Both the position numbers and the translations under genes were made by a program. A model generated the notes under the pieces. The model was not told where the DNA came from and made no database searches. It was given only the letters and a program-made list of their open reading frames with translations. Positions 14,335 through 42,815 of a stretch of 64,000 bases of DNA are shown here, piece after piece. The first letter of the stretch is position 1. The number at the start of each line of letters is the position of its first letter. Source of the stretch: Clostridia bacterium (GTDB taxonomy: Bacteria > Bacillota > Clostridia > Oscillospirales > Acutalibacteraceae); NCBI GenBank assembly GCA_017416345.1, contig JAFQCR010000016.1, forward strand, positions 1-64,000, read 5' to 3'.

Positions 14335-16260
14335 ATGAAAACTTCAGTTTTCAAGAAGGCAGTTGCACTTGTTGTCTGTGCTTTGATGCTGTTCAGCACC
14401 TTGGTTATTTCGGCAGGCGCTGCAACTGTTGCTACCCTTACCGTCGCTGCAGACGGTGATTCCTATAATGTGGGTGATACCGTAAAGGTCACCGCATCCG
14501 TTTCGGACGCAGGCTCGTTCCAGTCGATGGGTCTTACCATCGCTTACGATGATGTGCTTGAGCTCGTTGGCGGCGGCTGGCTTGCCGAGGATGCCGTTAT
14601 TGCAGACTATACTGTCGGTAACGCTAAAGCTGCTATGACCTTTGAGGCAGACACCGCTTTTTCGGGCGATGTATTCTACCTTGAGTTTGTGGTTCTCGAG
14701 GCTGCGACCTTTGGCGATTACAATGTCACCTTGACCCCCGTCATCAAGACCGAGGCCGGTGCTGTTGTTGAATGTGCAGCAGGTACCGCTACCGTTACCG
14801 TTGCCTGTGCACACGGTATGGGCGATGTTGCCTATGATGATGAGTACCACTGGGACGAATGCGCAGATTGCGGCGAGGACCTTAACAAGACAGCACACGA
14901 GTTCGACAATGCATGTGATTCGACCTGTAGCGGTTGTGAATACACCCGTGAGGTAGGCGACCACGTATATGACAATGCTTGCGATGCTGATTGTAACAAC
15001 TGCGGCGCTATCCGTGAGGTAGGTGACCACGTATACGACAACGCTTGCGATGCTGATTGTAACAACTGTGGCGCTACCCGTGAGGTAGGCGACCACGTAT
15101 ATGACAACGCTTGCGATGCTGATTGTAACAACTGCGGCGAAGTCCGTGAGGTTGGCGACCACACTTGGGGCGACTATGATTACGACGATGACGGTCACTG
15201 GCAGACCTGCGTAAACGGCGATGCCACCACCGAAAAGACCGGCCACACCTATGGTGATTGGATCGTTGAGACCCCCGCAACCAACACCACTACCGGTGTC
15301 AAGTACAGAGAGTGCGTTTGCGGCCACAAGGAGACTGCTGTTATTCCCGCAACCATGAAGTTTGCATCTGCAACCTTGACCCTTGAGAGTAGCATTACCA
15401 TCAACTACAAGGTTAAGCCCGAATATTTCACCAATTATGGCTATACCGACCATTATGTAGTATTTACATTTGACGATGACAACGGTGTGCCTTATGATAC
15501 CGTTGTGTCCGATTACCGTATTGAAGGTACCGGTTCTTCTCAGCGTTATGTTTTCGAGTTCAACGGAGTTAAGTCTTTCCAGATGACTCAGACTGTTGTC
15601 GCAACTCTTTATGCAACCTACGACGGCGAGCTTTATTCAAGCGCACCGCAGGAGTACAGTGTAGCAACCTATTGCTACAACCGTTTGGAAAAGTCTGATG
15701 ATGAGGTATTCAAGAGCTTGATCGTTGACCTTCTTAACTACGGTACCGAAGCACAGTTGCTTTGGAAACATAAGACCGATGATCTTGCCAATGCAGCCTT
15801 GACTCCTGAGCAGGCAGCGCTTGGCAGCACAACAACCAGAGATTATGTTGACAGTCTCAACACTACTCATGCTACCATCAGCAATGCAACCGCAACTTGG
15901 AAGTCGGCTTCTCTTATCATGTATGATGCAGTTATCATTAGAATGAGATTTATCACCGACGATATCAGCGGTATCACCGCTAAGATCACCAACGACAACG
16001 GTGATGAGTGGATCGTGAACAATGAGGATATTGTTTGGAATGCTGATGCAGGCAGATATGAGGTTTACTTTGATGGTCTGTACGCTATGGAAATGAGTGA
16101 TGTTGTATACTTCACTCTGTACAGAGACGGTGTAGCGACCAGCAACACCATCGCCTACAGCATCGAATCTTATGTTGCAAGAAACACCAACGCAAGTCAG
16201 ACCGCTCTTCTTGAGGCTATGATGAGATACGGTGATTCTGCAGTTAAGTATTTTGGTTAA
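14335..16260 (+). CDS. secreted cohesin-like protein with Cys-rich repeats
   Basis: 641 residues. A signal peptide (KKAVALVVCALMLFSTLVISAGAA) is followed by a cohesin-like beta domain at about residues 33-157, with YNVGDTVKVTASVSDAGSFQS and LTIAYDDVLELV. Next come four 22-residue units around HVYDNACDADCNNCG (residues 188-275), a linker with two more Cys-Gly pairs, and a C-terminal half with two similar beta domains (from FASATLTLESSITINYKV and from TWKSASLIMYDAVIIRMRF), each ending near a YGxxA motif. There is no sortase signal or transmembrane anchor. It has its own promoter and lies 58 bp upstream of the 35-residue peptide gene, so it may share its transcript. Probable surface or extracellular protein of unknown ligand. 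Confidence 0.85.
   Translation: MKTSVFKKAVALVVCALMLFSTLVISAGAATVATLTVAADGDSYNVGDTVKVTASVSDAGSFQSMGLTIAYDDVLELVGGGWLAEDAVIADYTVGNAKAAMTFEADTAFSGDVFYLEFVVLEAATFGDYNVTLTPVIKTEAGAVVECAAGTATVTVACAHGMGDVAYDDEYHWDECADCGEDLNKTAHEFDNACDSTCSGCEYTREVGDHVYDNACDADCNNCGAIREVGDHVYDNACDADCNNCGATREVGDHVYDNACDADCNNCGEVREVGDHTWGDYDYDDDGHWQTCVNGDATTEKTGHTYGDWIVETPATNTTTGVKYRECVCGHKETAVIPATMKFASATLTLESSITINYKVKPEYFTNYGYTDHYVVFTFDDDNGVPYDTVVSDYRIEGTGSSQRYVFEFNGVKSFQMTQTVVATLYATYDGELYSSAPQEYSVATYCYNRLEKSDDEVFKSLIVDLLNYGTEAQLLWKHKTDDLANAALTPEQAALGSTTTRDYVDSLNTTHATISNATATWKSASLIMYDAVIIRMRFITDDISGITAKITNDNGDEWIVNNEDIVWNADAGRYEVYFDGLYAMEMSDVVYFTLYRDGVATSNTIAYSIESYVARNTNASQTALLEAMMRYGDSAVKYFG
14896..15159 (+). repeat. 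66-bp tandem repeat inside the secreted protein gene
   Basis: Four in-frame 66-bp units: one diverged (14896-14961) and three almost identical (14962-15027, 15028-15093, 15094-15159). Each encodes a unit centred on HVYDNACDADCNNCG with three cysteines. The few differences are mostly synonymous or in the last residues, which points to recent copy-number change. Confidence 0.9.
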
Positions 16261-16318
16261 TTAAGTTAGAGATTGGCGTGAGCCATTTATCTATAAATTT
16301 TATTCGGAGGTGAATTCA

Positions 16319-16426
16319 ATGTTCAAGAAACCCGAAGCAGAGATCGTTTTGTTTGCAGCTCAGGATATCGTTACCACTTCTGGTAATCAGCCCGGCAAGG
16401 GAGAGACCGAAGAGGACGAGTTCTAA
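16319..16426 (+). CDS. 35-residue candidate precursor peptide
   Basis: ATG 16319 follows GGAGGTGA by 5 bases, an excellent ribosome site, and the frame ends at TAA 16424-16426. The peptide starts MFKKPEAEIVLFAAQ, then DIVTTSGNQPGKGE, and ends in the acidic EEDEF. It has no signal peptide. Small peptides of this type (KxPExExVxF, then DVxTTSG and a polar, acidic tail) recur in gut Clostridia as short uncharacterised genes. It lies directly before an HPr-kinase-like gene, a PqqD-like gene and a peptidase gene, which is the classical surrounding of a modified-peptide precursor. The Thr-Thr-Ser cluster is a possible phosphorylation site. Role is inference. Confidence 0.75.
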   Translation: MFKKPEAEIVLFAAQDIVTTSGNQPGKGETEEDEF

Positions 16427-16458
16427 TTTGTTTGTATAATTTTACAAGCTTGTGAACA

Positions 16459-16508
16459 ATTTGATTTGCGCAGATCAAATGAGGATGGGTCTTTGGATCC
16501 ATCCTCAT
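16459..16508 (+). promoter_or_regulatory. two consecutive hairpins between peptide and kinase genes
   Basis: Hairpin 1: ATTTGAT, 8-base loop, ATCAAAT (16459-16480). Hairpin 2: ATGAGGATGG, 10-base loop, CCATCCTCAT (16479-16508). There is no U-tract after either. They may act as a partial terminator, a processing site or a stabiliser that gives more peptide mRNA than kinase mRNA. Confidence 0.6.
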
Positions 16509-16554
16509 AACCCTATTATGGGATGAAAACTATTTATTATTTTGCAGGTTTATT

Positions 16555-17277
16555 ATGGCATTATATAAAATTGCGGATTTTATTATTGACATTCAAAACA
16601 GATTCGGCTACATTGAAAAGCAATGTGCCGAATATAAATATGACGGCGACGGTGCGGCTGATCTTACCGTCAAGGTGACCGATGCCGAGCTTGAGGCGGA
16701 GCGCAAAATTGCCGGTGACGGCTATTCGCCCGGCTATCTCGAAAGCATCTGCGCTTATCGCCAGATAGCAATGAAGCTGCCCGAAAACGATGCCCTGCTT
16801 ATGCACGGAGCAACCTTTGAGCTTGACGGCAGAGGGATCATTTTCATTGCACGTAGCGGTGTCGGAAAATCTACCCACACTTTTGCTTGGAAAAGGCTTT
16901 ACGGCGATAAAATGACCGTTGTCAACGGTGACAAGCCTATCATCCGTTTCTTTGACGGGGTGCCTTATGCTTACGGAACACCGTGGGCAGGCAAGGAGGG
17001 CTTGCAGACTAACACAAGTGCACGTTTGACCGATATCTGCATACTTGAGCGCGGTGTGGATAACAAGACAGTAAAGGTCGAGCCTGCCGAATATCTCGAC
17101 CGGATAATGCAGCAGATCTTGCATCCTGCCGACCCTGTGGCGGCGCTCAAAACGCTTGAATTGGTGGACGGTCTGGCGCAAAAATGCAATTTTTGGAATA
17201 TAAAGTGCAACATTTCGGATGAAGCCGCCATCGTTTCCCACGATGCGATATTCGGTGATCAATGCGAGGAGAGTTGA
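16555..17277 (+). CDS. HPr-kinase/phosphorylase-like peptide kinase
   Basis: 240 residues. The P-loop is ARSGVGKST at residues 99-107, followed by the NGDKPII strand (about 124-130) and GTPWAGKEG, the order of the HPr kinase catalytic domain, without the N-terminal domain of true HprK. The N-terminal 85 residues (YKIADFIIDIQNRFGYIEKQC) match the small HPrK-like proteins of peptide-modification clusters. In paeninodin-type lasso clusters a homologue phosphorylates a C-terminal serine. Here no lasso cyclase is present. The likely substrate is the 35-residue peptide encoded 128 bp upstream, but this is inference. The ribosome site is weak (GCAGG), suggesting low expression relative to the peptide. 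Confidence 0.8.
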   Translation: MALYKIADFIIDIQNRFGYIEKQCAEYKYDGDGAADLTVKVTDAELEAERKIAGDGYSPGYLESICAYRQIAMKLPENDALLMHGATFELDGRGIIFIARSGVGKSTHTFAWKRLYGDKMTVVNGDKPIIRFFDGVPYAYGTPWAGKEGLQTNTSARLTDICILERGVDNKTVKVEPAEYLDRIMQQILHPADPVAALKTLELVDGLAQKCNFWNIKCNISDEAAIVSHDAIFGDQCEES

Positions 17278-17415
17278 ACACAAATCGGTTTTGGAATGTA
17301 TTTTTTCGCCTATACTTCCTCGAATTTCACGGATATACGCTCGTATTATCCGTAAAATTCTCGTTGCCTCAACAAAAAAATACTATTAAAAACTGTTTCA
17401 CACCTCGCGACTTGA

Positions 17416-17443
17416 AAATTTTGAGATACAAATTTTGAGATAC
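17416..17443 (+). repeat. 14-bp tandem direct repeat
   Basis: AAATTTTGAGATAC occurs twice in direct succession and a decayed third copy follows. It lies in the 383-bp gene-free interval 17278-17660, which also contains the dispersed repeat at 17567. No promoter or gene is evident in the rest. Confidence 0.7.
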
Positions 17444-17566
17444 AAATTTTTATTTTGAGCGCCGATATACCGGCGTATATCAAGCGAAAAAGCGGAATTT
17501 TAGCCAAAATTGGCTGTTGCGAGGCGTTTCGGGTTCGACTCTCCTCGCACTCAGGTACGCAGATAT

Positions 17567-17634
17567 GTCATTCCGAGCGTTGCGAGGAATCTTTTCGATC
17601 CGTGGCAAAGATCCTTCACTTCGTTCAGGATGAC
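17567..17634. repeat. dispersed GTCATTCCGAGC/GGATGAC-type repeat
   Basis: GTCATTCCGAGCG at one end and CGTTCAGGATGAC at the other form the inverted ends. Inside are GCGAGGAATC and AGATCCTTCACTTCG. Elements with these ends are scattered through many bacterial genomes as small non-coding mobile repeats. This copy sits between the kinase and the PqqD genes. Family resemblance is from memory. Confidence 0.75.
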
Positions 17635-17660
17635 CGAAACATAAATCGAGGAGTGCTATT

Positions 17661-17930
17661 ATGAAACTTAAATATAAATTCGTTGTAAAATCGGTTGCGG
17701 GTAAGTCGGTTGCGGTTGCTATCGGTGACGATAACGCAAAATTCAACGGTATGGTCAAGCTTAACGAGACGGGTGAGGTCATATTCAATATGCTCAACGG
17801 CGGTGATACCACGGCTGACGACATTTCTGCGGCTTTGATGGCCAAATATTCCATCGATAAGGCTACCGCCGATGAGGCGGTCGACGGCTTTGTCGGCAGT
17901 CTGCGTGCAGGCGGTCTGATCGAAGAATGA
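17661..17930 (+). CDS. PqqD-like peptide-binding (RRE) protein
   Basis: 89 residues, the standard length of PqqD. Features are an N-terminal beta section (KYKFVVKSVAGKSVAVAI), LNETGEVIFNMLNGGDTTADDISAAL in the winged-helix part, and a C-terminal helix VDGFVGSLRAGGLIEE. PqqD-fold proteins bind leader peptides and present them to modifying enzymes. GAGGAG lies 9 bases before the ATG. The stop overlaps the next start (ATGATG), so it is co-translated with the peptidase. The partner peptide is most likely that at 16319. Confidence 0.88.
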   Translation: MKLKYKFVVKSVAGKSVAVAIGDDNAKFNGMVKLNETGEVIFNMLNGGDTTADDISAALMAKYSIDKATADEAVDGFVGSLRAGGLIEE

Positions 17931-18376
17931 TGGACCAAAAGATTGAAGAAATCATCCAAAGAGACGGCTTTGTGCTTGAAATGACGGTGGGGGACAGTAT
18001 GGAACCGATGCTCAAAAACCGTCAGAACCCCATAGTCATCGAAAGGGTGACCGAACGTCCAAAAAAGCACGATGTTGTGCTTTACAAAAGGGACTCGGGA
18101 CAGTATGTTTTGCACCGTATCGTCAAGGTGCGGCCGAATGACTACGCCATTCGCGGCGATAACCGTCTTAATACCGAATACGGTGTTTGCGACCGTCATA
18201 TCATCGGCGTTTTGAAGGGATACTATATCGGTGAGCGGTATGTCGACTGTGCCACCGATAAGGAGTACAAGCGATACGTATCGTCCTTAAAATACAAATA
18301 CCTTGCTCGCAAAGCAAAGGAGCTTTTCGGCCGTGCGATGCGAAAGCTCGGCAGGATATTTACGCATAATAAATAA
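17927..18376 (+). CDS. S24/S26-type serine peptidase
   Basis: 149 residues. The nucleophile box is MTVGDSMEPML (S24), followed by HDVVLYKRDSGQYVLHRIVKV with a histidine (H63) where SipW and ER-type signal peptidases carry their general base, and then DYAIRGDNRLNTE. There is no N-terminal membrane helix, unlike ordinary signal peptidases; the C-terminus is basic. The probable role is leader removal or trimming of a modified peptide in the cytoplasm or at the membrane. The gene overlaps the PqqD gene. Start could be either of two adjacent ATGs (17927, 17930). Confidence 0.8.
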   Translation: MMDQKIEEIIQRDGFVLEMTVGDSMEPMLKNRQNPIVIERVTERPKKHDVVLYKRDSGQYVLHRIVKVRPNDYAIRGDNRLNTEYGVCDRHIIGVLKGYYIGERYVDCATDKEYKRYVSSLKYKYLARKAKELFGRAMRKLGRIFTHNK

Positions 18377-18392
18377 ATACCGTAAAAATTTT

Positions 18393-18421
18393 GAGGTGCT
18401 TTTAAAGCACCTCTTTTTTTT
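18393..18421 (+). terminator. terminator of the peptide cassette
   Basis: GAGGTGCTTT pairs with AAAGCACCTC, then TTTTTTTT. It separates the peptide cassette from the exopolysaccharide operon. Confidence 0.92.
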
Positions 18422-18546
18422 ATTTGCATTTCATTGATTTTAAAGAATTTTGCCGAAATTTCGGAAATATGCAAAGCTGCACAAAAAGAAGATGAAAAAA
18501 TTTACGGTAATGACGTGTTATAAGCCTTTCTGAAAGCGTGTTATCG

Positions 18547-18575
18547 TTGACATTTATACTTGAAAGTGGTAAAAT
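18547..18575 (+). promoter_or_regulatory. promoter of the exopolysaccharide operon
   Basis: TTGACA (18547-18552), 17 bp, TAAAAT (18570-18575): a near-consensus vegetative promoter. It appears to serve a run of same-strand genes up to about 42815, since no strong internal terminator was noticed. Confidence 0.85.
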
Positions 18576-18628
18576 TATAAAGGATATTGGGTTATTGCGC
18601 CAATATGAATATAAGGTAGGTTTTAACT

Positions 18629-19768
18629 ATGGCAAGCACTCGAAAAAGAATACTTCTGTCTACTCCGACAATGCACGGAGAGGAGATGGAATTTGTCAAA
18701 GAAGCCTTTGATAAGAATTGGATAGCACCGCTCGGTTTTAATTGCGATAACTTCGAGACCGAGATGTGTGAATACCTCAATAAGGGAATAGACGGCAAAT
18801 TTTCCGCGTTGGCCCTTTGCTCGGGAACGGCGGCCCTGCATCTTGGTATCAAGCTCGCAGGTGTCAAGCGCGGCGACATTGTGCTGTGCTCCGATATGAC
18901 CTTTTCGGCAACCGTCAACCCCGTGTCCTACGAGGGTGGAGTACAGGTCTTTATCGATTCCGAGCGTGACACATGGAATATGGATCCCAGAGCGCTCGAA
19001 AAAGCCTTTGAAAAATATCCCGAGGCCAAGGTCGTTGTGCTGGCGCATCTTTACGGTACGCCGTCAAAAATGGATGAGATCATCGCCATCTGCAAGAAGC
19101 ATAACGCCGTGCTGATAGAGGATGCTGCCGAAGCGCTTTCGGCAACCTACAAGGGCCGTGAATGCGGCACCTTCGGCACCTATAACGCTATCAGCTTCAA
19201 CGGCAACAAGATAATCACGACCTCGGGTGGCGGAATGCTCATTACCGAGACCGAGGCAGCAAGGAACAAGGCCTTCTTCTGGGCTACTCAATCGCGTGAG
19301 CCTGCACCGTGGTATCAGCACGAGGAGATCGGCTATAACTACCGTATGTCCAACGTTGTTGCGGGCATCGGCCGCGGTCAGCTTCTCCACCTCGAGGAGC
19401 ACCGTGAGATCAAAGAAAAAATATTTTGCAGATACTGTGAAGGCTTCAAGGGTCTGCCGATAACGCTCAACCCGTATCTTCCCGATACCAAGCCGAATTT
19501 CTGGCTGTCGTGTATGCTTATCGATAACGGTTGCAACGTTGACCCCATAAAGATAATGGAAAAGCTGGCTGAGGAAAATATTGAGGCAAGACCTATCTGG
19601 AAGCCGATGCATATGCAGCCCGTTTTTAAGGACCGTGATTTTATTTTTGTTGAAGACAGTCCCGTTAACGAGGAGGTCTTCAAAAAGGGTCTCTGCCTGC
19701 CGAGCGATATCAAGATGACCGAAGACGAGCAGGACTTTATCATCGAAACCGTAAAATCTTTCTTTTGA
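18629..19768 (+). CDS. DegT/DnrJ/EryC1-family sugar aminotransferase
   Basis: 379 residues, a PLP-dependent sensory fold. CSGTAALHLGIKLAGV binds the cofactor phosphate, D165 (LIEDAAEAL) contacts the pyridine ring and K194 (FNGNKIITTSGGG) is the Schiff-base lysine. These enzymes aminate 4-keto nucleotide sugars; the PglE type, which makes UDP-4-amino sugars for bacillosamine-like residues, is the nearest match by context because a PglC-type transferase follows directly. The first gene after the operon promoter, it should feed the initiating sugar. The exact sugar is not provable here. Confidence 0.88.
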   Translation: MASTRKRILLSTPTMHGEEMEFVKEAFDKNWIAPLGFNCDNFETEMCEYLNKGIDGKFSALALCSGTAALHLGIKLAGVKRGDIVLCSDMTFSATVNPVSYEGGVQVFIDSERDTWNMDPRALEKAFEKYPEAKVVVLAHLYGTPSKMDEIIAICKKHNAVLIEDAAEALSATYKGRECGTFGTYNAISFNGNKIITTSGGGMLITETEAARNKAFFWATQSREPAPWYQHEEIGYNYRMSNVVAGIGRGQLLHLEEHREIKEKIFCRYCEGFKGLPITLNPYLPDTKPNFWLSCMLIDNGCNVDPIKIMEKLAEENIEARPIWKPMHMQPVFKDRDFIFVEDSPVNEEVFKKGLCLPSDIKMTEDEQDFIIETVKSFF

Positions 19769-19776
19769 GGTTACAT

Positions 19777-20454
19777 ATGTACGCGAATTTTTTTAAGAGA
19801 GTGATCGACCTTTTGCTGTCGCTGATCGCATTGATCGTTTTGTCTCCCGTGATACTGGTGCTGATAATTCTCGGAGCCGTCAAGATGAGGGGCAACCCGT
19901 TTTTTACACAACAGCGACCCGGCAAGGGTGAAAAGATATTTAAGCTTATAAAGTTCAGAACCATGACCAACCAGAAGGACAAGGACGGCAAACTTTTGCC
20001 GGATGACGTGCGTCTGACCAAGTACGGCAAGGTGCTGCGTTCCACCTCGTTGGACGAGCTGCCCGAGCTTCTGAACATCATCAAGGGCGATATGGCCATC
20101 GTTGGACCCCGACCTCAGCTTGTGCGTGATATGGTGTTTATGACCGAGCAGGAAAGGATCAGACACACCGTCCGCCCGGGACTCACCGGTCTTGCCCAGG
20201 TCAGCGGACGAAACAATATGAGCTGGGAAAAGAAGTTTGAATATGACCTCGAGTACATACAAAGGATCACATTTTTCGGTGATATAAAGATCATTTTCAA
20301 CACGGTATTCAAGGTGTTCAAGCGTGACGGTATCGCAACCGACGGAATGGAGACCGCCGAGGATCTGGGCGACTATCTGCTGAGGGTCGGTAAGGTCGAA
20401 CGACCCGATTACGATAAGAAACAAGAAGAAGCAAAGGAATTAATGAGGATATAA
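19777..20454 (+). CDS. initiating phospho-sugar transferase (PglC/WcaJ family)
   Basis: 225 residues. One N-terminal membrane segment (FFKRVIDLLLSLIALIVLSPVILVLIILGA) is followed by the conserved core KLIKFRTM, TSLDELPELLNIIKGDMAIVGPRP and RPGLTGLAQVSGRN. It transfers a sugar phosphate from a UDP-sugar to undecaprenyl phosphate at the membrane, starting repeat-unit synthesis. The small, single-helix form is like PglC. ATG 19777 has GAGG 6 bases upstream. Its coupling to the aminotransferase suggests a diamino- or acetamido-sugar at the reducing end. Confidence 0.92.
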   Translation: MYANFFKRVIDLLLSLIALIVLSPVILVLIILGAVKMRGNPFFTQQRPGKGEKIFKLIKFRTMTNQKDKDGKLLPDDVRLTKYGKVLRSTSLDELPELLNIIKGDMAIVGPRPQLVRDMVFMTEQERIRHTVRPGLTGLAQVSGRNNMSWEKKFEYDLEYIQRITFFGDIKIIFNTVFKVFKRDGIATDGMETAEDLGDYLLRVGKVERPDYDKKQEEAKELMRI

Positions 20455-20456
20455 GA

Positions 20457-21296
20457 GTGGAAAATATAAAATTTTCTGTATCTATGTGTGTTTACGGCGG
20501 CGACGATCCGCTTTGGTTTAAAACTGCGGTCGACAGCATTCTCAATCAGACCGAGGCTCCGTCCGAGGTGGTGCTGGTGGTTGACGGTCCCGTGCCCGAG
20601 CAGCTTGATGCCGTTATTACAGAGTATGCCAAAATTCCGATCTTTAAAATCATAAGGTTTGAGGAAAACCGCGGACACGGTGATGCCAGACGCGCAGGCC
20701 TTGAGGCTTGTGAAAATGAGCTGGTTGCATTGATGGACGCCGATGATATAAGCGTTAACGACCGATTTGAAAAGCAAATATCAAGATTTGCGGCCGAGCC
20801 TGAGCTTGACATAGTCGGTGGAAATATAAACGAGTTTATCGGAGCCGAGGATAACGTTGTCGCCAAGAGGATAGTGCCTTGTGACGATAAGGAGATCAAA
20901 CAGTATATGAAAAAGCGTTGCCCGATGAACCAGATGACCGTAATGTTCAAAAAATCATCGGTCGACAGTGTTGGTGGATATGTTGATTGGTACTGTGACG
21001 AGGACTATTATCTGTGGCTCAGAATGGCTTTGGCCGATATGAAGTTTGCCAACGTTGATGACGTGCTGGTCAACGCGCGTGTGGGTGCCGATATGTACAA
21101 CCGCCGCGGAGGGCTCCGCTACTTTAAAAGCGAGGCCAAGCTGCAGAAATATATGCTGGACAACAAGGTAATAGGCTTTGGCACCTATTGCGTTAACGTT
21201 TTAAAAAGACTGATCGTTCAGGTGCTGTTGCCGAACCGTATCAGAGGATGGGTATTTAAAAAGTTTGCGAGGAAGTCGGTGGATAATAATGGCTGA
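20457..21296 (+). CDS. family 2 glycosyltransferase
   Basis: 279 residues from a GTG start (GAG of the ribosome site overlaps the previous stop). GT-A fold: FSVSMCVYGGDDPLWFKTAVDSILNQT at the N-terminus, ENRGHGDARRAGLEA, and the metal-binding LMDADDIS. It should add one sugar to the lipid-linked repeat unit. No membrane helix. The end overlaps the next gene by 8 bases. Confidence 0.88.
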   Translation: MENIKFSVSMCVYGGDDPLWFKTAVDSILNQTEAPSEVVLVVDGPVPEQLDAVITEYAKIPIFKIIRFEENRGHGDARRAGLEACENELVALMDADDISVNDRFEKQISRFAAEPELDIVGGNINEFIGAEDNVVAKRIVPCDDKEIKQYMKKRCPMNQMTVMFKKSSVDSVGGYVDWYCDEDYYLWLRMALADMKFANVDDVLVNARVGADMYNRRGGLRYFKSEAKLQKYMLDNKVIGFGTYCVNVLKRLIVQVLLPNRIRGWVFKKFARKSVDNNG

Positions 21297-22541: not shown

Positions 22542-22556
22542 TGAGTAGGGATAAAA

Positions 22557-23378: not shown

Positions 23379-23379
23379 A

Positions 23380-24186: not shown

Positions 24187-24244
24187 GAGCTCTCGGAGCG
24201 TAAGGTGCTTACGGAATTAATTAAGATTGTAAAGGTGTTTGAGA

Positions 24245-25324: not shown

Positions 25325-25348
25325 ATATTCAAGGGAAAGAGTTTTGTA

Positions 25349-27774: not shown

Positions 27775-27802
27775 CGGTAGAAATATACGGTTGGAGGAAA
27801 AA

Positions 27803-29017: not shown

Positions 29018-29025
29018 GGTAGCTT

Positions 29026-29688: not shown

Positions 29689-29701
29689 GTGGGTGTTTGT
29701 T

Positions 29702-30844: not shown

Positions 30845-30901
30845 TTTATACTGTCTAACAATTAACATTAATTGTTATGGCAAACAAAAAGCAGAGGTAT
30901 T

Positions 30902-34846: not shown

Positions 34847-34872
34847 TTTTTTCAAAAAAGGCTTGACATATT

Positions 34873-35874
34873 ATGCAAAACAGAGGACAATCTGATGGCA
34901 GACAGACAGACAGCGCTATTAGCCTGATACGATGCATTTCCATGCTGATGATCGTTACCTGTCACTTTTTCCAGTATTACGGTAACGAGTTGGCATATTG
35001 GTTTAATGGCGGAGTATACATTTTCTTTGCGATAAGCGGATTTTTGTACGGCTCAAAAGCAATTGATGACCCCATAAAATTTTTGTCACGTAAGTTCAAA
35101 AGTGTTCTGATACCCTATTACACATTCCTTGTTCCGGCCATCGCTTTGTATTTCTTCTTTGCCAGATCATCTTTTTCGGTGGGCTCGGTTGTTAAGGCGT
35201 TAGTGTGTTCGGGAACGATCGACGGTTTAGGTCATCTGTGGTTTGTGGCATATATTTTGTTCTGCTACTTTATAACACCGTACTTATACTGGTTTGTAAA
35301 GAAATGTGAGGGTTATTCGTTCCTGAGGTTTACCTGTATCTCAATAGCGCTGTTGATTGCGATTCAGGTTATCGGATATATGTTCGATTCCTTCTTCAGG
35401 GCTGACCGTATAACCTGCTACATTATCGGATATCTTTTCTCGGTTTACAGTAAGCGATACGGCAAGAAGGTAACTGTCGGAATTTGTGTCCTGTTTGCTG
35501 TTTCCGGCGTTGCTGTCAATATAGTGAGAATATACATAAAGTATTTGTCCGGTATGCAATTGAGCGGCGTTTTTGCAAAGATGTTTATTTTTGCCGAGCC
35601 GTATGCACATCTGTTGCTGTTCAGCGCAATGTTTATGGTTCTGTATCTGATTGCTTCAAAAGTCAAATACAATGTTTTGCTGAAGCTTTCGGACAGGTAT
35701 TCTTATGAGGTTTATCTGGTTCATCAGTTGTTTATCCTAAGTCCGTTTTCGCTTATGGCAATAACTCCGTTCAAGTATCTGAACTGGGTATTGGTTGTAG
35801 TTGCCATAGCTCTGTTAGCGATAATTCTGAAGTTTGTGACCGAAAAAACAATAAAACCCAAAAAGGTAAAATAA
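34873..35874 (+). CDS. acyltransferase-3 family membrane protein
   Basis: 333 residues with about ten membrane helices. The acyltransferase-3 motifs are SLIRCISMLMIVTCHFFQYYG near the N-terminus, FAISGFLYG and GLGHLWFVAYILFCY. Such proteins O-acetylate polysaccharides. It lies between the WecC- and WecB-type genes, so it probably decorates the same polymer. Confidence 0.88.
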   Translation: MQNRGQSDGRQTDSAISLIRCISMLMIVTCHFFQYYGNELAYWFNGGVYIFFAISGFLYGSKAIDDPIKFLSRKFKSVLIPYYTFLVPAIALYFFFARSSFSVGSVVKALVCSGTIDGLGHLWFVAYILFCYFITPYLYWFVKKCEGYSFLRFTCISIALLIAIQVIGYMFDSFFRADRITCYIIGYLFSVYSKRYGKKVTVGICVLFAVSGVAVNIVRIYIKYLSGMQLSGVFAKMFIFAEPYAHLLLFSAMFMVLYLIASKVKYNVLLKLSDRYSYEVYLVHQLFILSPFSLMAITPFKYLNWVLVVVAIALLAIILKFVTEKTIKPKKVK

Positions 35875-35890
35875 TATAGGGAGCGTTTTT

Positions 35891-36982
35891 ATGAAAACCG
35901 TAATGCTTGTTTTCGGCACACGTCCGGAAGCAATTAAAATGTGTCCGCTTGTAAATGAGCTCAAGACACGAAAGAGATTAAAGACCGTCGTGTGCGTAAC
36001 CGGTCAGCACCGTCAGATGCTGGATCAGGTACTCGAGGTGTTCGACGTTGTGCCGGACTATGATCTGTCCATTATGAAGGACAAGCAGACCTTGTTTGAT
36101 ATCACTACCGGTATTCTGAACGGTATTGGCAAGGTGCTGGACGAGGTCAAGCCCGATGTCGTGCTGGTTCACGGCGATACCTCCACCACCTTTGTTACCG
36201 CATTGGCGTGCTTCTATAAGCAGATACCCGTCGGTCACGTTGAGGCAGGACTCAGGACCTATAATATCTACAGCCCGTATCCCGAGGAGTTCAACCGTCA
36301 GGCCGTTTCCATTATTTCGCAATACAATTTTGCTCCGACCGAGTTGTCAAGGGATAACCTTTTGAAAGAGGGTAAGGACGAAAGCACGGTTTTTGTTACG
36401 GGCAACACCGCTATTGATGCTCTTAAAACCACCGTTCGTGAGAACTATTCTCACCCCGAGCTTGATTGGGCGAAGGACAGCAGGCTTATAATGATAACGG
36501 CACACCGCCGTGAAAATCTCGGTGAGCCGATGCACAATATGTTCAGAGCAATAAGACGTGTAATGGACGAGCATTCGGATGTTAAAGCCATTTACCCGAT
36601 ACATATGAACCCCGTGGTCAGAAAGGCTGCTGAGGAGGAGTTGGCGGGTTGTGACCGCATCAGGATAATCGAGCCGCTTGAGGTTATTGATTTCCATAAC
36701 TTTTTGGCACGCAGTTTTATGATACTGACCGATTCGGGCGGCATTCAGGAGGAGGCACCGTCATTGGGTAAGCCGGTGCTTGTTATGCGTGACACCACCG
36801 AGCGTCCCGAAGGCATAAAAGCAGGAACACTTAAGCTGGTCGGTACGGATGAGGACGTGATCTACAACAACTTCAAGCTTTTGCTTGAGGATGCAAACGC
36901 TTACGATGCGATGTCAAAGGCCAGTAACCCTTACGGCGACGGTCTTGCTTGCAAGCGCATCGCTGATATTTTGGAGGGCTGA
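35891..36982 (+). CDS. wecB: UDP-N-acetylglucosamine 2-epimerase (non-hydrolysing)
   Basis: 363 residues. VFGTRPEAIKMCPLV, VHGDTSTTF, HVEAGLRTYN, TAHRRENLG and LTDSGGIQEEAPSLGKPVLVMRDTTERPEG are diagnostic. It interconverts UDP-GlcNAc and UDP-ManNAc for the WecC-type enzyme. A second, more distant family member lies at 40427. GGGAG lies before the ATG. Confidence 0.94.
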   Translation: MKTVMLVFGTRPEAIKMCPLVNELKTRKRLKTVVCVTGQHRQMLDQVLEVFDVVPDYDLSIMKDKQTLFDITTGILNGIGKVLDEVKPDVVLVHGDTSTTFVTALACFYKQIPVGHVEAGLRTYNIYSPYPEEFNRQAVSIISQYNFAPTELSRDNLLKEGKDESTVFVTGNTAIDALKTTVRENYSHPELDWAKDSRLIMITAHRRENLGEPMHNMFRAIRRVMDEHSDVKAIYPIHMNPVVRKAAEEELAGCDRIRIIEPLEVIDFHNFLARSFMILTDSGGIQEEAPSLGKPVLVMRDTTERPEGIKAGTLKLVGTDEDVIYNNFKLLLEDANAYDAMSKASNPYGDGLACKRIADILEG

Positions 36983-36985
36983 AGA

Positions 36986-38032
36986 ATGTCACTTTTTAAA
37001 GGTAAGACCTTGCTTATAACCGGTGGTACCGGTAGTTTCGGAAATGCGGTCTTGAACCGCTTTTTGGCCACCGATATCGGTGAGATCAGAATCTTCTCAA
37101 GAGATGAAAAAAAGCAGGACGATATGCGCCACGAGTTTCAGGCAAAAATGCCTGAGGTCGCCGATAAGATAAGCTTTTATATCGGTGATGTGCGCGATCT
37201 GGCTTCGGTCAAAAATGCAATGCACGGTGTGGATTACATATTCCATGCGGCCGCTTTAAAGCAGGTCCCGTCGTGCGAGTTTTTCCCCATCGAGGCTGTT
37301 AAGACCAACGTTTTGGGCACCGAAAACGTGCTGACTGCCGCTATCGAGGCAGGCGTTAAAAACGTTGTCTGCCTTTCGACCGATAAGGCGGCATATCCCG
37401 TTAATGCAATGGGTACCAGCAAGGCCATGATGGAGAAGGTCATAGTGGCAAAATCTCGCACAGTTGACCCCGAAAAGACCAAAATATGCTGTACCCGTTA
37501 CGGCAACGTTATGTGCTCAAGAGGCAGTGTTATTCCGCTTTGGATCGAGCAGATAAAGGAGGGCAAGCCCATCACCATCACCGAACCCTCTATGACACGT
37601 TTCATTATGTCGCTTGATGAGGCGGTTGACCTTGTTTTATTTGCTTTTGAAAACGGTGAGACGGGTGACATTCTGGTTCAAAAGGCACCTGCCTGCACTA
37701 TTGAGGTGCTGGCCAAGGCCGTTGCCGAGCTCTTCAATCCCGAGACCGAGATCAAGGTCATCGGCATCCGTCACGGTGAGAAGATGTATGAGACCCTACT
37801 TACAAACGAAGAATGTGCCAACGCCTTTGATATGGGTGAGTTCTACCGCGTGCCTTGCGATAAGCGCGGTCTGAATTACGATAAGTATTTCAAGGACGGC
37901 GACAAAGAGCGTAATCCCTTGACCGAGTTTAACTCTCACAATACCGAGCTTTTGGATGTTGAGGGCGTTAAAGAAAAGCTTTTGTCACTGCAATATATCC
38001 GTGATGAGCTTAAGGCCATCGGAAGAGGATGA
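36986..38032 (+). CDS. capE: UDP-GlcNAc 4,6-dehydratase/5-epimerase (CapE type)
   Basis: 348 residues, short-chain dehydrogenase fold. The cofactor site is LITGGTGSFGNAVLNRFL. HAAALKQVPSCEFFPIEAV carries the Lys-containing substrate motif, LSTDKAAYPVNAMGTSKAMMEK the SMK-type active site, and TRYGNVMCSRGSVIPLW the C-terminal signature of inverting dehydratases (CapE/PseB/FlaA1). With the CapF- and CapG-type genes at 39225 and 40427 it completes the route to UDP-N-acetyl-L-fucosamine. Confidence 0.92.
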   Translation: MSLFKGKTLLITGGTGSFGNAVLNRFLATDIGEIRIFSRDEKKQDDMRHEFQAKMPEVADKISFYIGDVRDLASVKNAMHGVDYIFHAAALKQVPSCEFFPIEAVKTNVLGTENVLTAAIEAGVKNVVCLSTDKAAYPVNAMGTSKAMMEKVIVAKSRTVDPEKTKICCTRYGNVMCSRGSVIPLWIEQIKEGKPITITEPSMTRFIMSLDEAVDLVLFAFENGETGDILVQKAPACTIEVLAKAVAELFNPETEIKVIGIRHGEKMYETLLTNEECANAFDMGEFYRVPCDKRGLNYDKYFKDGDKERNPLTEFNSHNTELLDVEGVKEKLLSLQYIRDELKAIGRG

Positions 38033-38034
38033 TA

Positions 38035-39219
38035 ATGACAAACGAGTTCAACAAAGCGGTCATCGCGCTGGTAAAGAGCGCATTGACCGGTGAAGCTGCC
38101 GAGCTGCCCGAGCAGAAGGACATCGGTAGGTTTTATAAATTTGCAGTCAAACACAATATCGTTGTGCTGATGTACTACGGCTTGATAAATTCGGGCATGG
38201 ATCCCGATTCGGATGAGGGCATCAATTTCTTTATCCCTGCCTGCCAGTATATTGCCGTTGCAGAGCATCAGATGAATAGCGTGAAAGAGCTTTTTGCCGA
38301 GTTTGAGAAGCAGGGGATCGATCATATGCCGCTGAAAGGTGTTGTTATCCGAGACCTTTATCCCAAGCCCGAAATGCGTGCGATGGGTGATGCGGACATA
38401 CTCATCCGTGAGGACCAGTATGACGGTATCACGCCGATCCTTAAACGCACAGGATATGAGTTTGTTAAGAGCAGCAAAAACGAATACGCTTGGCAGAAGC
38501 AGGATTTTTATCTTGAGCTGCACCGTTACCTGCTTTCGCCCGACCACTCGGACTATTTTGAAGTGATCGGTGACGGATGGCAGTTTGCCGAAAAAAGTTC
38601 TGACAGTAGCTTTAAATATCGTATGTCTGACGAGGATCTGCTTGTGCATCTGGTGGTTCACTTTGCCAAGCACTACCGCAGCTCCGGCATTGGAATTAGG
38701 CACGTAACGGACATATGGCTGTTCCTTAAGACGCATCCGCAGCTTGATACCGACCGTGTGAAGATGCAGCTTACGGAAGTTAAGCTTGACTTGTTTTATG
38801 AAAATTTGATCAAGACTGCAAATGCATGGTTTGGGGACGGGCTTTTTGACGAGGTCACCGAGCTTATGACCGAAAAGGTGCTGCAGAGCGGCTCGTTCGG
38901 TACGCCCGATTCGTATAGCAGATCGCAGGCTCTTAAGGACTCCAAACGAGGCGAGGGCAAAAGTCGCTCCAAGCGTTTTTGGAGTGCGGTATTCCTGCCG
39001 TATGCAAATATGTGCCTGCTGTTTCCTGTGCTTAAAAAGTGCCCCGTTCTTTTGCCGTTCCTTTGGGTCTGGCGTATCATCAGCACGGCTTTTAATAAAA
39101 AAGGACGGTTGACACGTCATTACAACAGCATAAAGTTGCTGTCTTCCGAAAATATAAAGCAATACGAAAAAGAGCTTAATGCGGTCGGATTGGAATACCG
39201 TTTTGAAGAGGATGATTGA
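38035..39219 (+). CDS. PF14907-type nucleotidyltransferase family protein (1)
   Basis: 394 residues (an ATG two codons earlier is also possible). The motif MPLKGVVIRDLYPKPEMRAMGDADILI at about residues 98-124 has the Lys-Gly and the GDxD aspartates (D119, D121) of this uncharacterised nucleotidyltransferase family. A helical middle has HLVVHFAKHYRSSGIGIRHVTDIW. The C-terminal region carries RGEGKSRSKRFW, shared with the paralogue at 41643. Homologues occur in lasso-peptide clusters next to HPr-kinase-like kinases, where one adds hexoses to a phosphopeptide. Here it stands between the CapE and CapF genes and overlaps the stop of CapE. Function is inferred. Confidence 0.82.
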   Translation: MTNEFNKAVIALVKSALTGEAAELPEQKDIGRFYKFAVKHNIVVLMYYGLINSGMDPDSDEGINFFIPACQYIAVAEHQMNSVKELFAEFEKQGIDHMPLKGVVIRDLYPKPEMRAMGDADILIREDQYDGITPILKRTGYEFVKSSKNEYAWQKQDFYLELHRYLLSPDHSDYFEVIGDGWQFAEKSSDSSFKYRMSDEDLLVHLVVHFAKHYRSSGIGIRHVTDIWLFLKTHPQLDTDRVKMQLTEVKLDLFYENLIKTANAWFGDGLFDEVTELMTEKVLQSGSFGTPDSYSRSQALKDSKRGEGKSRSKRFWSAVFLPYANMCLLFPVLKKCPVLLPFLWVWRIISTAFNKKGRLTRHYNSIKLLSSENIKQYEKELNAVGLEYRFEEDD

Positions 39220-39224
39220 ACCTT

Positions 39225-40427
39225 ATGAACATACTCGTTACAGGTGCTAAAGGCTTTGTGGGTAAGAATCTTGTTGCCGCTTTGAAAAACATCAAGGACG
39301 GCAAGGATAGGACCCACCCCAAGCTTACGGTCGAGGATATCTTTGAATTTGATATTGATACTCCGAAAGAGGTTTTGGACGAGGCCTGCCAAAAGGCGGA
39401 TTTCGTTTTTAACCTTGCGGGGGTCAACCGCCCGAAGGAGACTTCCGAGTTTATGGAAGGTAATTTCGGTTTTGCGTCCGAGCTGTTGGAAACGCTGAAA
39501 AAGCATAACAATGCTTGTCCCGTGATGCTGTCGTCCTCGACCCAGGCTTCTCTGGTCGGACGCTTTGCAGGCAGCGTTTACGGCGAGTCCAAAAAAGCAG
39601 GCGAGGAGCTTTTCTTCGAATACTCAAAAGAAACCGGTGCAAAGGTGCTGGTCTACCGCTTCCCGAATGTTTTCGGTAAGTGGTGCCGTCCCAATTACAA
39701 CAGTGCCGTTGCGACCTTCTGTAACAACATTGCAAATGACCTGCCTATCACGGTCAACGACCCGTCGGTACAGCTTGAGCTGGTGTATATCGACGATATC
39801 GTTGACGAAATGCTGCTTGCTTTAGAAGGCAATGAGCATCATTGCGAGTTTGACGGTGCGGATTTTGTGCTGTCCTCAAACGGACGCTACTGTGCCGTGC
39901 CCGTGACACACAAGGTCTTGCTGGGTGAGATAGTCGACCTGCTTAATAAGTTCCACGATCAGCCGACCACGCTCACAATGCCCGAGATTCCATACGGCAG
40001 TTTTCAGAAAAAGCTTTATTCTACATATCTTTCGTATCTGCCCAAGGAAAAGGTGGCTTTTCCGCTCAAGATGAACGTTGATCCGAGAGGCAGCTTTACC
40101 GAGCTTCTCCGCACCGAGAAATGCGGTCAGTTCAGCGTGAATATTTCCAAGCCGGGCATCACCAAGGGTCAGCATTGGCATAACACCAAGTGGGAGTTCT
40201 TTATTGTTGTAAGCGGTAAGGGACTTATCCAACAGCGCAAAATAGGTACCGATGAGGTGCTGAATTTTGAGGTCTCGGGTGAAAGAATTGAGGCGGTGCA
40301 TATGCTCCCCGGTTACACCCACAACATTATCAATCTGAGCGAGACCGATGACCTTGTCACCGTTATGTGGGCCAACGAATGCTTTGATCCCAATAAACCC
40401 GATACATTTTTTGAGGTGGTAGAATAA
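39225..40427 (+). CDS. capF: CapF-type 4-reductase/epimerase with cupin domain
   Basis: 400 residues. The N-terminal short-chain dehydrogenase domain starts MNILVTGAKGFVGKNL and has the catalytic YGESKKAGEE. The C-terminal cupin (about residues 280-395) carries GQHWHNTKWEFF and MLPGYTHNIINL with its metal-binding histidines. In Staphylococcus CapF makes UDP-N-acetyl-L-talosamine, which CapG turns into UDP-L-FucNAc. ATG 39225 was preferred over a TTG at 39216. Confidence 0.92.
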   Translation: MNILVTGAKGFVGKNLVAALKNIKDGKDRTHPKLTVEDIFEFDIDTPKEVLDEACQKADFVFNLAGVNRPKETSEFMEGNFGFASELLETLKKHNNACPVMLSSSTQASLVGRFAGSVYGESKKAGEELFFEYSKETGAKVLVYRFPNVFGKWCRPNYNSAVATFCNNIANDLPITVNDPSVQLELVYIDDIVDEMLLALEGNEHHCEFDGADFVLSSNGRYCAVPVTHKVLLGEIVDLLNKFHDQPTTLTMPEIPYGSFQKKLYSTYLSYLPKEKVAFPLKMNVDPRGSFTELLRTEKCGQFSVNISKPGITKGQHWHNTKWEFFIVVSGKGLIQQRKIGTDEVLNFEVSGERIEAVHMLPGYTHNIINLSETDDLVTVMWANECFDPNKPDTFFEVVE

Positions 40428-41611
40428 TGGATATAAAATTAGATTATTCCGATGTGAAATTTCAAGATAACGGAAAATTGAAGCTGCTTATCATCGTGGG
40501 TACAAGGCCTGAGATAATCCGCCTTGCCGCCGTTATCAATAAGTGCCGTGAGTATTTTGACTGTGTGCTGGCTCACACGGGTCAGAATTATGACTATAAT
40601 CTCAACGGAGTTTTCTTCCGTGACTTGAAATTGGCCGATCCCGAGGTCTATATGGATGCTGTCGGTGATGACCTTGGTGCCACCGTGGGTAACATCATCA
40701 ACTGCTCTTATAAGCTGATGGTCGAGATCAAGCCCGATGCTTTGCTTATTTTGGGCGATACCAACTCGTGCCTTTCGGCCATTGCCGCCAAGAGACTGCA
40801 CATCCCCATCTTCCATATGGAGGCCGGCAACCGCTGTAAGGATGAGTGTTTGCCCGAGGAGACCAACCGCAGAATAGTTGACATAATCTCGGACGTCAAC
40901 CTTGCTTATTCCGAGCACGCAAGACGTTACCTGCACGAATGCGGTCTGCCCAAGGAGCGCACCTATGTTACGGGCTCTCCTATGGCCGAGGTCTTGCACA
41001 ACAACCTTGAGGACATCAAGGCTTCGGATGTACATACCCGTTTGGGACTTGAAAAGGGAAAATACATCCTGCTTTCGGCTCACAGAGAAGAGAATATCGA
41101 CACCGAGAAGAACTTCCTTTCGCTTTTTGGTGCCATCAACAAAATGGCCGAAAAGTACGGTATGCCTATTCTTTACTCCTGCCATCCCAGGAGCAAAAAG
41201 CGTCTTGAGCAGAGTGGCTTTAAGCTTGACAGCCGTGTTATTCAGCACGAGCCTCTCGGATTCCACGATTATAACTGTCTGCAGATGAATGCTTTTGCGG
41301 TTGTTTCCGACAGCGGCACCCTGCCCGAGGAATCAAGCTTTTTCACAAGCGTGGGCAACCCGTTCCCTGCAGTCTGCATCCGCACCTCGACCGAGCGCCC
41401 CGAGGCGCTTGACAAGGCCTGCTTTATTTTGGCAGGTATTGATGAGCACAGCCTTTTGCAGGCTGTTGATACTGCGGTGGAAATGAATAAAAACGGTGAT
41501 ATAGGAATCCCCGTTCCCACCTATGTTGAGGAAAATGTTTCGACCAAGGTGGTCAAGATAATCCAAAGCTACACCGGTGTAGTAAACAAAATGGTATGGA
41601 GAAAATTCTAA
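40427..41611 (+). CDS. capG: CapG-type UDP-N-acetyl-sugar 2-epimerase
   Basis: 394 residues. IIVGTRPEIIRLAAVI, LGDTNSCLSAI, HMEAGNRCKDECLPEETNRR, SAHREENIDTEKN and SDSGTLPEESSF place it in the UDP-sugar 2-epimerase superfamily; the EAGNRC and DSGTLPEE variants mark the CapG branch rather than WecB. The start overlaps the last base of the CapF stop. It finishes UDP-L-FucNAc synthesis. Confidence 0.9.
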   Translation: MDIKLDYSDVKFQDNGKLKLLIIVGTRPEIIRLAAVINKCREYFDCVLAHTGQNYDYNLNGVFFRDLKLADPEVYMDAVGDDLGATVGNIINCSYKLMVEIKPDALLILGDTNSCLSAIAAKRLHIPIFHMEAGNRCKDECLPEETNRRIVDIISDVNLAYSEHARRYLHECGLPKERTYVTGSPMAEVLHNNLEDIKASDVHTRLGLEKGKYILLSAHREENIDTEKNFLSLFGAINKMAEKYGMPILYSCHPRSKKRLEQSGFKLDSRVIQHEPLGFHDYNCLQMNAFAVVSDSGTLPEESSFFTSVGNPFPAVCIRTSTERPEALDKACFILAGIDEHSLLQAVDTAVEMNKNGDIGIPVPTYVEENVSTKVVKIIQSYTGVVNKMVWRKF

Positions 41612-41642
41612 ACAGCAAAAGTCACTTTAAAGGAGGTGTGCT

Positions 41643-42815
41643 ATGAGCAGGCAATATATGAAGTTGTTGCTGATTCTTGTTAATTCCGTGCTCAAAAGCA
41701 CGCCTTTAACCGATGACGAAAAGGCACAGTTCACACCCGAGTTTATCCAAAAAACGGCGGTAATAGCCGAAAAGCACAAGCTGTTGCCCATTGTTGCCAA
41801 TGCGCTGATCGCAAATAAGATGCTTGACCCTTCAGACGAGCTTTATGTAAAGCTCAGGAAATTGCAGCTTGCTCAAGTTTATAAGGCCGAGCGGATGGAA
41901 TACGAGCTTGGCCGTATGTGTGATGAGCTTGAAAAGGTAGGCATTGAGTTTGTGCCGCTCAAAGGCTCGGTCGTGCGCAGGCTTTATCCCGAGCCGTGGA
42001 TGCGCACAAGCTGTGACATTGATATCCTTGTTAAAAAAGAGGATATAGAAAAAGCGATAACGGTTTTGACCGACAGGCTTGAGTATTTAAAAAACGGCGA
42101 AAGCTTCCACGACATAAAGTTCAAAACACCGTCCAAGATCAATATCGAACTGCATTTTAACCTTATTGAGGATGAGGTGAGGGACAGTATCACGGCGGTG
42201 CTGGATGATGCGTGGCAACACACAGCTCCTATCGAAGGACATCGCTGTTATATGCAGTTTGATAATGAGTTCTTTGTGCTTTACCACATCATCCATATGG
42301 CCAAGCATATGACGCTCGGCGGTTGCGGAATAAGACCCTTTATCGATCTTTGGCTGATGCGTAAGAATCTGAAGCTCGATGACGGTATGCTGAACGAAAT
42401 GTTCAAGCGGTCCTCAGTAATGCAGTTTGCCGCCGTTAGCTACCGTTTGTGCGATATATGGTTTGCCAACATCCCTCACGATGAGCTCACCCTTGAAGCC
42501 GAGGAGTTTATATTAAGGGGCGGCGTTTTCGGAACAACGGGTAACAGTGCCGCCATTCAGCGAGGCGAGGGCAAGAGTAAAGGCAAGCAGTTTTTAAAAC
42601 TGATGTTTTTACCGTCCGAAAGCCTTAAGCTTATCTACCCCAATCTGAAAAAGCACCCGTGGCTGTTGCCGTTTTATCAGGTCAAGCGTTGGTTCAGAGT
42701 GTTCGACCGTTCCAAGCGTAATAAGATCGCCCAAAGGGTCGATGCCAACGACAGGATATCCGACGAAACGGTCGACAGAGTTGCCAAGCTTATGAGCGAT
42801 CTTGAATTGAATTAA
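41643..42815 (+). CDS. PF14907-type nucleotidyltransferase family protein (2)
   Basis: 390 residues, a paralogue of the protein at 38035. VPLKGSVVRRLYPEPWMRTSCDIDILV (about residues 104-130) keeps the Lys-Gly and both aspartates (D125, D127), but the glycine before the first aspartate is replaced by cysteine. A His pair is in YHIIHMAKHMTLGGCGIRPFIDLW, and RGEGKSKGKQFLKLMFLPSESLKLIYP is the shared C-terminal segment. AAAGGAGGTG precedes the ATG. It is the last gene of the exopolysaccharide operon. Same inferred role as its paralogue. Confidence 0.82.
   Translation: MSRQYMKLLLILVNSVLKSTPLTDDEKAQFTPEFIQKTAVIAEKHKLLPIVANALIANKMLDPSDELYVKLRKLQLAQVYKAERMEYELGRMCDELEKVGIEFVPLKGSVVRRLYPEPWMRTSCDIDILVKKEDIEKAITVLTDRLEYLKNGESFHDIKFKTPSKINIELHFNLIEDEVRDSITAVLDDAWQHTAPIEGHRCYMQFDNEFFVLYHIIHMAKHMTLGGCGIRPFIDLWLMRKNLKLDDGMLNEMFKRSSVMQFAAVSYRLCDIWFANIPHDELTLEAEEFILRGGVFGTTGNSAAIQRGEGKSKGKQFLKLMFLPSESLKLIYPNLKKHPWLLPFYQVKRWFRVFDRSKRNKIAQRVDANDRISDETVDRVAKLMSDLELN

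Follow-up and report, generated by a model that had tools for sequence, protein, structure and literature searches.

A diverged LPP-like peptide-modification gene set in Clostridia, with precursor genes often placed behind secreted-protein genes

The 64,000-nucleotide stretch of Clostridia bacterium contig JAFQCR010000016.1 analysed here (hereafter the window) carries a compact cassette comprising a 35-residue precursor peptide, an HprK-like kinase, a PqqD-type leader-binding protein and an S26 signal-peptidase-like protein and, further downstream, two PF14907 nucleotidyltransferases placed among FnlA/B/C sugar genes. Its core corresponds to a gene set published in 2026, the Linear Polyphosphorylated Peptides (LPP) pathway of Paenibacillus alginolyticus, encoded by lppA-K-B-S-D-N (Popov et al., Nat Commun 2026, PMC13381572), and the window holds a diverged, LPP-like variant of it. 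With a probability of roughly three in four, we read the system as a Clostridia variant of the LPP pathway, in which the peptide would be bound, phosphorylated, trimmed, extended with a sugar and exported, and would act with the secreted protein encoded upstream of it. This reading draws on the genes observed and their conservation, on how the families co-occur, on the nearness of precursors to predicted secreted proteins and on linkage to FnlA/B/C genes.

All parts named by the initial annotation (peptide, HprK-like kinase, PqqD, S26 and two PF14907 genes) were recovered by profile and family matches. The genes for the secreted protein, the 35-residue peptide, the kinase, PqqD and S26 follow one another in this order on the + strand from 14335 to 18376, with spacings of 58 bp (secreted gene to peptide), 128 bp (peptide to kinase) and 383 bp (kinase to PqqD) and a 4-base overlap between PqqD and S26 (Table 1). 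The published LPP set consists of a precursor, an HprK kinase, an RRE, a SipW-like peptidase, an MsbA-like exporter and a nucleoside triphosphate (NTP) transferase, and is found in capsule loci of Bacilli; in the available parts of that paper, LppB binding depends on a YxxP motif, LppK adds several phosphates to core Ser3, and LppS cuts after T-1 via a Ser/His/Asp triad, with LppB being required (PMC13381572). The window shares with this set a discrete RRE, an HprK-like kinase, a SipW-like Ser/His/Asp peptidase and an NTP transferase, together with a short precursor that has a [Y/F]xxP leader, a downstream Ser and a variable tail, the lack of a B2 protease, and polysaccharide genes nearby. By analogy, the system very probably operates like the LPP pathway, and the sequence of binding, phosphorylation and trimming proposed in the initial annotation matches what was reported for the Paenibacillus cluster. 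The accompanying claim that no described system has this exact set does not hold, because LPP has it; our literature search, with subscription papers and preprints mostly outside its reach, found no further description of the gene set.

Taken alone, the window kinase matches HprK-type families weakly (TIGR04352, E=5e-4; Pfam Hpr_kinase_C, E=0.07), and comparison with solved structures gave no confident match (PEPCK, E=0.07; HprK, E=0.39); a GxGKxTH P-loop and an NxDKP motif are invariant across 16 aligned relatives. A profile of 16 PqqD relatives matches the solved leader binders TbiB1, TfuB1, PbaB1 and LppB at E-values from 8e-10 to 2e-7, the best match being the lasso B1 protein TbiB1, with LppB (9x8z) at E=2e-7. 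The S26 protein gave a weak signal-peptidase match below the family cut-off (TIGR02228, E=1e-6), no meaningful match among solved structures and, by eye, no membrane segment in its sequence; Ser24, His63 and Asp78 are invariant in 27 of 27 aligned sequences. The HPr-rel-A system likewise combines an HprK-related kinase (TIGR04352) with a PqqD-family chaperone (TIGR04353); membership of the window in that system was rejected, the kinase scoring 19.3 bits against a cut-off of 200 and PqqD 23.5 bits against 35.

The precursor is not a chance open reading frame (ORF): when the 847 small ORFs of the window were searched with a profile built without it, it scored E=2.7e-9, the runner-up E=0.83 and the best decoy from the reversed window E=0.41. 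The precursor set (n=42) was assembled from 13 peptides within ~3 kb of kinase genes, selected by eye with a search pattern that did not require Thr or Ser, and 29 peptides added by profile (29 of its 37 rows). Its members, by approximate counts, have an aromatic residue with Pro at +3 (36/42), Phe at +10 (30/42), Asp at +14 (34/42), Thr at +17 (25/42) and, as the proposed phosphosite, Ser at +19 (33/42), followed by Gly/Asp-rich tails, one of the 42 containing Cys. The leader signature of the window-type precursors is [Y/F]xxPExEIxxFExxDIITxS; judged from the Paenibacillus pathway, phosphorylation is likely at the Ser of TTS, with leader cleavage probably near the Thr preceding it. Many of the peptides are encoded a long way from any kinase match, which would require the modifying enzymes to act on them in trans.

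The distribution of the parts was compared across 98 genomes, including the window's own, in which the kinase was found in 37, PF14907 in 42 and PqqD in 52. Kinase and PF14907 shared 34 genomes, three having the kinase only and eight PF14907 only (P=2e-15), and every kinase genome also had PqqD (37 shared, 0 kinase-only, 15 PqqD-only). Among 300 genomes of the family, 74 had a match to the peptide profile A2 (E<=0.1) and 135 had the kinase, which was present in 71 of the 74 peptide genomes (P=6e-27) and, at E<=1e-3, in 59 of 60. Kinase neighbourhoods were counted on the best 80 titled contigs among the kinase-alignment matches listed, which by title are mostly Clostridia with a few other phyla and vary in reach (59 have room for PF14907), using neighbour-gene profiles built from the loci of this analysis; PqqD was found near the kinase in 58, S26 in 44, PF14907 in 20 and an ABC match in 19, and none of these lay downstream in 18. 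The order kinase-PqqD-S26 recurs in titled contigs, sometimes followed by an ABC gene, a PF14907 gene or both; Ruminococcus flavefaciens Y1 has kinase-PqqD-S26-ABC-PF14907 (L177), and PF14907 adjoins S26 in several relatives. With the genome-wide co-occurrence of kinase, PqqD, PF14907 and peptide and the recurring kinase-PqqD-S26 order, the data support the earlier proposal that the five families, S26 included, belong to one system. Pathway genes can be dispersed across the genome: in the same-genus genome G002 (150 contigs as assembled), separate loci carry the kinase (L062), a PqqD-S26 pair with LCP genes (L115), a second PqqD-S26 pair by DegT (L237), PF14907 with Fnl genes (L111) and the peptides, the last behind a large gene cut by the end of the stretch examined (L078).

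Further kinase homologues were seen in two settings. A paralog stands between two flanking genes, which we take to be enolase-like and rRNA-methyltransferase-like, in five genomes (L036, 7971-8696; L058, L062, L064 and L069), the neighbour at the G002 locus presumably being enolase; since the paralog between these flanks is the sole kinase match in G002 and G003, it may be the enzyme acting on the peptides of these two genomes. At four other loci (L072, L073, L074 and L075), a kinase homologue adjoins a presumably radical-SAM-like gene, with PqqD in three of the four and Wzz-type genes in L072 and L073; the 'YEKP'-like peptides nearby contain Cys and look like a different peptide class.

The genes for precursors occur at scattered sites, frequently behind genes for predicted secreted proteins, which are a more frequent partner than exopolysaccharide genes. 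Of 71 peptides examined, 49 have a same-strand ORF of at least 100 residues ending <=150 bp upstream; 35 of these upstream genes are complete, and the 14 cut by the ends of the stretches examined were omitted from the count. Proteins of at least 300 residues called secreted by a crude home-made predictor make up 28 of the 35 complete upstream neighbours versus 94 of 656 background genes of at least 150 residues (P=1e-16), and with a common 150-residue floor and any length above it the comparison is 28 of 34 versus 174 of 656 (P=7e-11). The other seven of the 35 were not predicted to be secreted proteins of that size; one type, presumably excinuclease-like, recurs in two related genomes. A Pfam scan of ten upstream proteins returned mixed content, including GH16, subtilase, LRR/BspA and F5/8C, and no match in three. 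The 290-residue C-terminal domain of the window's secreted protein (15370-16257), which apparently consists of two repeats, ends near YGDSAVKYF and has no Pfam match, was found in 12 of 53 precursor-preceding genes (the window seed gene counted) versus 1 of 801 other ORFs. General sequence sharing between peptide tails and the ends of upstream proteins was rejected: when 58 own-locus pairs were compared with 3294 cross pairs, L043 alone stood out as a clear case (score 86, cross maximum 42), its secreted protein ending in DEGWSDWWTPEY and the next peptide in DKGWSDWWTPEF. At L124 (1-2565, 4971-5150), a tandem protein with the C-terminal domain of the window protein, its start cut, has an end resembling the tail of the peptide that follows the next protein of this type (suggestive at 52 versus 41) and is a possible second fusion case.

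The two PF14907 genes of the window are the only ones in its genome (E<=1e-3), and in both the window and G002 they are interleaved with FnlA, FnlB and FnlC homologues. FnlB-type genes (E<=1e-30) occur in 22 of the 98 genomes, 16 of which also have PF14907, and PF14907 lies <=6 kb from FnlB in eight of these 16 versus 0.14 expected. In six of these eight linked genomes, a PF14907 gene lies among the FnlA/B/C genes or immediately next to them; one gene intervenes in G075 and four in G051. The kinase is present in all eight, and the six FnlB genomes without PF14907 are also without the kinase; this pattern, together with the 34 of 37 kinase genomes having PF14907, counters the possibility raised in the initial annotation that PF14907 follows the glycan genes independently of the kinase. 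The linkage to FnlA/B/C suggests UDP-N-acetyl-L-fucosamine (UDP-L-FucNAc) or a close relative as the donor for the phosphopeptide, and such a donor would fit the guess, in the available text of Popov et al., that LppN works only with a partner or on a rare substrate supplied from outside the cluster.

On the LPP-like reading, PqqD would hold the 35-residue precursor by its [F/Y]xxP leader and present it, the kinase would phosphorylate the conserved Ser right after the leader (TTS), and the S26 peptidase would remove the leader close to the phosphosite, each as in Paenibacillus LPP. The PF14907 enzymes would then build on the phosphate, the added unit probably being a 2-acetamido-2,6-dideoxyhexose supplied by the surrounding FnlA/B/C enzymes, and the product would leave the cell via a putative exporter and may work with the secreted protein encoded directly upstream.

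The initial annotation placed this system within an exopolysaccharide locus, which stands as to adjacency and probably not as to a shared transcript. A 24-kb exopolysaccharide operon begins behind a terminator-like hairpin and has its own promoter-like site, in a scan whose site totals were not clearly above those of shuffles (terminators 6 versus 5.5, promoters 15 versus 9.1); because these two elements intervene, the cassette probably neighbours the operon without being part of its transcript. The adjacency could mean that cassette and operon form one glycan-anchoring machine, the phosphopeptide priming or anchoring the polysaccharide. Consistent with this, a PqqD-S26 pair of G002 adjoins DegT and sugar-transferase homologues (L237), LCP glycopolymer transferase genes directly precede PqqD-S26 in 4 of 4 genus members searched, and published LPP clusters often lie within capsule loci (PMC13381572). 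We nevertheless regard it as unlikely, given the hairpin and promoter-like site that divide the two groups, the precursors that elsewhere often follow secreted-protein genes, and an exopolysaccharide or Wzz-type match at only 7 of 118 other kinase loci (a limited query set of window families and two Wzz-type sets; two of the seven are Wzz queries matching themselves). On the same count, an exopolysaccharide locus as constant partner of the kinase was rejected as a general rule, and with it the suggestion that the peptide generally serves as anchor or signal for the surface glycan. The position of PqqD-S26 beside DegT and sugar-transferase genes and behind LCP genes makes an envelope role of the peptide system plausible, with direct attachment to the exopolysaccharide put forward as a proposal. 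A doubtful broader reading is that one cassette modifies many peptides in trans, each becoming a phospho-(FucNAc-type sugar) linker that joins or docks its upstream secreted protein to the envelope; the bond to the glycan would then be formed by LCP-type transferases.

The leader and its binding protein also recall lasso peptides. The leader resembles the YxxPxL lasso leader, the top solved match of the RRE profile is TbiB1, and a core starting at the Gly after TTS would put Glu at residue 8, permitting a ring; the peptide could then be a lasso-type or otherwise cyclised ribosomally synthesized and post-translationally modified peptide, with cyclase and B2 protease supplied in trans from elsewhere in the genome. 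That the lasso leader peptidase family PF13471 (B2) has no match in the window's own genome, where no search was aimed at the cyclase family, disfavours this reading. Among the 98 genomes PF13471 matched in 18, four over the cut-off, and only that of G091 shares a contig with PqqD and PF14907; furthermore, many precursors have no Gly or Ala after TTS, and S26 can stand in for the lasso leader peptidase, leaving cyclisation highly improbable. Pathways of the paeninodin/pseudomycoidin type (PadeK, PsmK, PsmN) share, as far as the available parts of their descriptions go, an HprK-like kinase and an annotated nucleotidyltransferase acting on a peptide Ser, and a PqqD-type B1 (PMC8498205, PMC9266682); the window differs in having no B2 protease and in a predicted phosphosite near the leader junction, whereas the lasso one is the C-terminal Ser. 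In the accessible part of a 2020 survey of rumen lasso clusters, HPr kinase was given for ~58%, PqqD for ~46% and nucleotidyltransferase for ~30% of its genomes (PMC7533575).

Several observations weigh against the reading of the window as an LPP pathway. Its leader signature differs from the published YxxPxVLxHQxIxFETxxS, which makes the cut site uncertain, and the RRE profile fits lasso B1 proteins equally well or better than LppB, the profile search not separating them. The cassette has no dedicated exporter, the best ABC protein of the genome being 32% identical (E=9e-55) to a same-genus exporter located by PqqD-S26; for this reason, and because of the leader, we call the system LPP-like and not a strict LPP member. 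No peptide match was found in 64 of the 135 kinase genomes (E<=0.1), and no confident one in 76 (E<=1e-3); PF14907 is close to FnlB in only half of the genomes with both; for 22 of the 71 peptides no ORF on the same strand ends in the 150 bp upstream; and the secreted-protein association leaves out 14 of 49 upstream genes, relies on crude calls and draws on related genomes that are not independent. In Popov et al., as far as available, lppN deletion caused no detectable change and LppN had no detectable activity in the heterologous system (PMC13381572). The window also departs from LPP in its host (Clostridia, compared with Bacilli), in its precursors, which in window relatives are scattered and often behind secreted-protein genes, and in the two PF14907 genes, which lie ~20 and 23 kb from S26 in the FnlA/B/C operon, the paper using a criterion of <=12 kb from its archaeal-type SpI peptidase. 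A decaying or domesticated remnant, with the peptide expressed and the pathway incomplete in this strain, would agree with the missing close exporter match and with the repeat-like sequence in the 383-bp gap; the ORFs are intact, the catalytic motifs are conserved and many other loci also have no linked ABC gene, and we consider a remnant very unlikely.

Table 1. Features of the window (positions 1-64,000) and related LCP loci
Feature	Position	Strand	Description
Predicted secreted 641-residue protein	14335..16260	+	Signal peptide, weak cohesin-type domain, His/Cys-containing repeats, 290-residue C-terminal domain without Pfam match
LppA-like precursor peptide MFKKPEAEIVLFAAQDIVTTSGNQPGKGETEEDEF	16319..16426	+	Leader FKKPEAEIVLFAAQDIVT; ribosome-binding-site-like GGAGGTG; predicted phosphosite Ser of VTTS, by analogy with LppA Ser3 (Popov et al. 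2026)
RNA hairpin, strong	16479..16508	+	Between peptide and kinase; folding energy of 16427-16554 is -39.2 kcal/mol (z=-5.0)
HprK-like kinase (LppK-like)	16555..17277	+	Weak HprK-type matches, conserved P-loop
PqqD-type leader-binding protein (RRE, LppB-like)	17661..17930	+	PF05402, E=6e-15
S26 signal-peptidase-like protein (LppS-like leader peptidase)	17927..18376	+	Weak TIGR02228 match; Ser24/His63/Asp78
Terminator-like hairpin with T run, closing the peptide cassette	18393..18413	+	Its region folds at z=-5.0
Promoter-like site ahead of exopolysaccharide operon	18547..18575	+	11/12 consensus match, TG before -10; consensus match only
FnlA-type UDP-GlcNAc 4,6-dehydratase/5-epimerase	36986..38032	+	TIGR04130, E=1e-160, below its cut-off
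PF14907 nucleotidyltransferase a (LppN/PsmN-like)	38029..39219	+	E=1.5e-44; same placement between FnlA and FnlB in same-genus G002
FnlB/WbcJ-type UDP-2-acetamido-2,6-dideoxy-hexulose reductase	39216..40427	+	NF047837, E=3e-104, below its cut-off
FnlC-type UDP-sugar 2-epimerase	40427..41611	+	PF02350 and TIGR00236; FnlC assignment from operon position
PF14907 nucleotidyltransferase b (LppN/PsmN-like)	41643..42815	+	E=7.5e-41
LCP then PqqD-S26 loci	L037 5453-8743; L113 3994-5836; L115 1975-4997; L229 3687-5564		

The strong hairpin between peptide and kinase is a possible separator of their expression levels. An interspersed-repeat-like sequence, GTCATTCCGAGCGTTGCGAGGAATCT, lies at 17567-17592 in the gap between kinase and PqqD, with one copy in the window. 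Elsewhere in the window, 6137-6757 and 7487-7981 hold two related ORFs, presumably YjbQ-type-like, within an apparent sugar-catabolism gene group.

Three features found here have no counterpart in the available text of Popov et al.: precursors scattered behind secreted-protein genes, dispersed pathway genes, and PF14907 in or near FnlA/B/C operons; the words Clostridia, Ruminococcus, secreted and surface are likewise absent from the main text as available (PMC13381572). That work, in the parts available, leaves open the role of LPP and the substrate of its NTP transferase, and here the scattered precursors behind secreted-protein genes show where that role might be sought, and FnlA/B/C point to a testable sugar donor. 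Many Clostridia from gut and rumen have related loci, among them a titled Ruminococcus flavefaciens strain, which opens the idea to tests in cultured bacteria. Precursors encoded right behind large secreted proteins are a clue to what the peptides are for, and a phospho-sugar peptide linker, if true, would parallel sortase or exosortase anchoring, with a peptide as the carrier.

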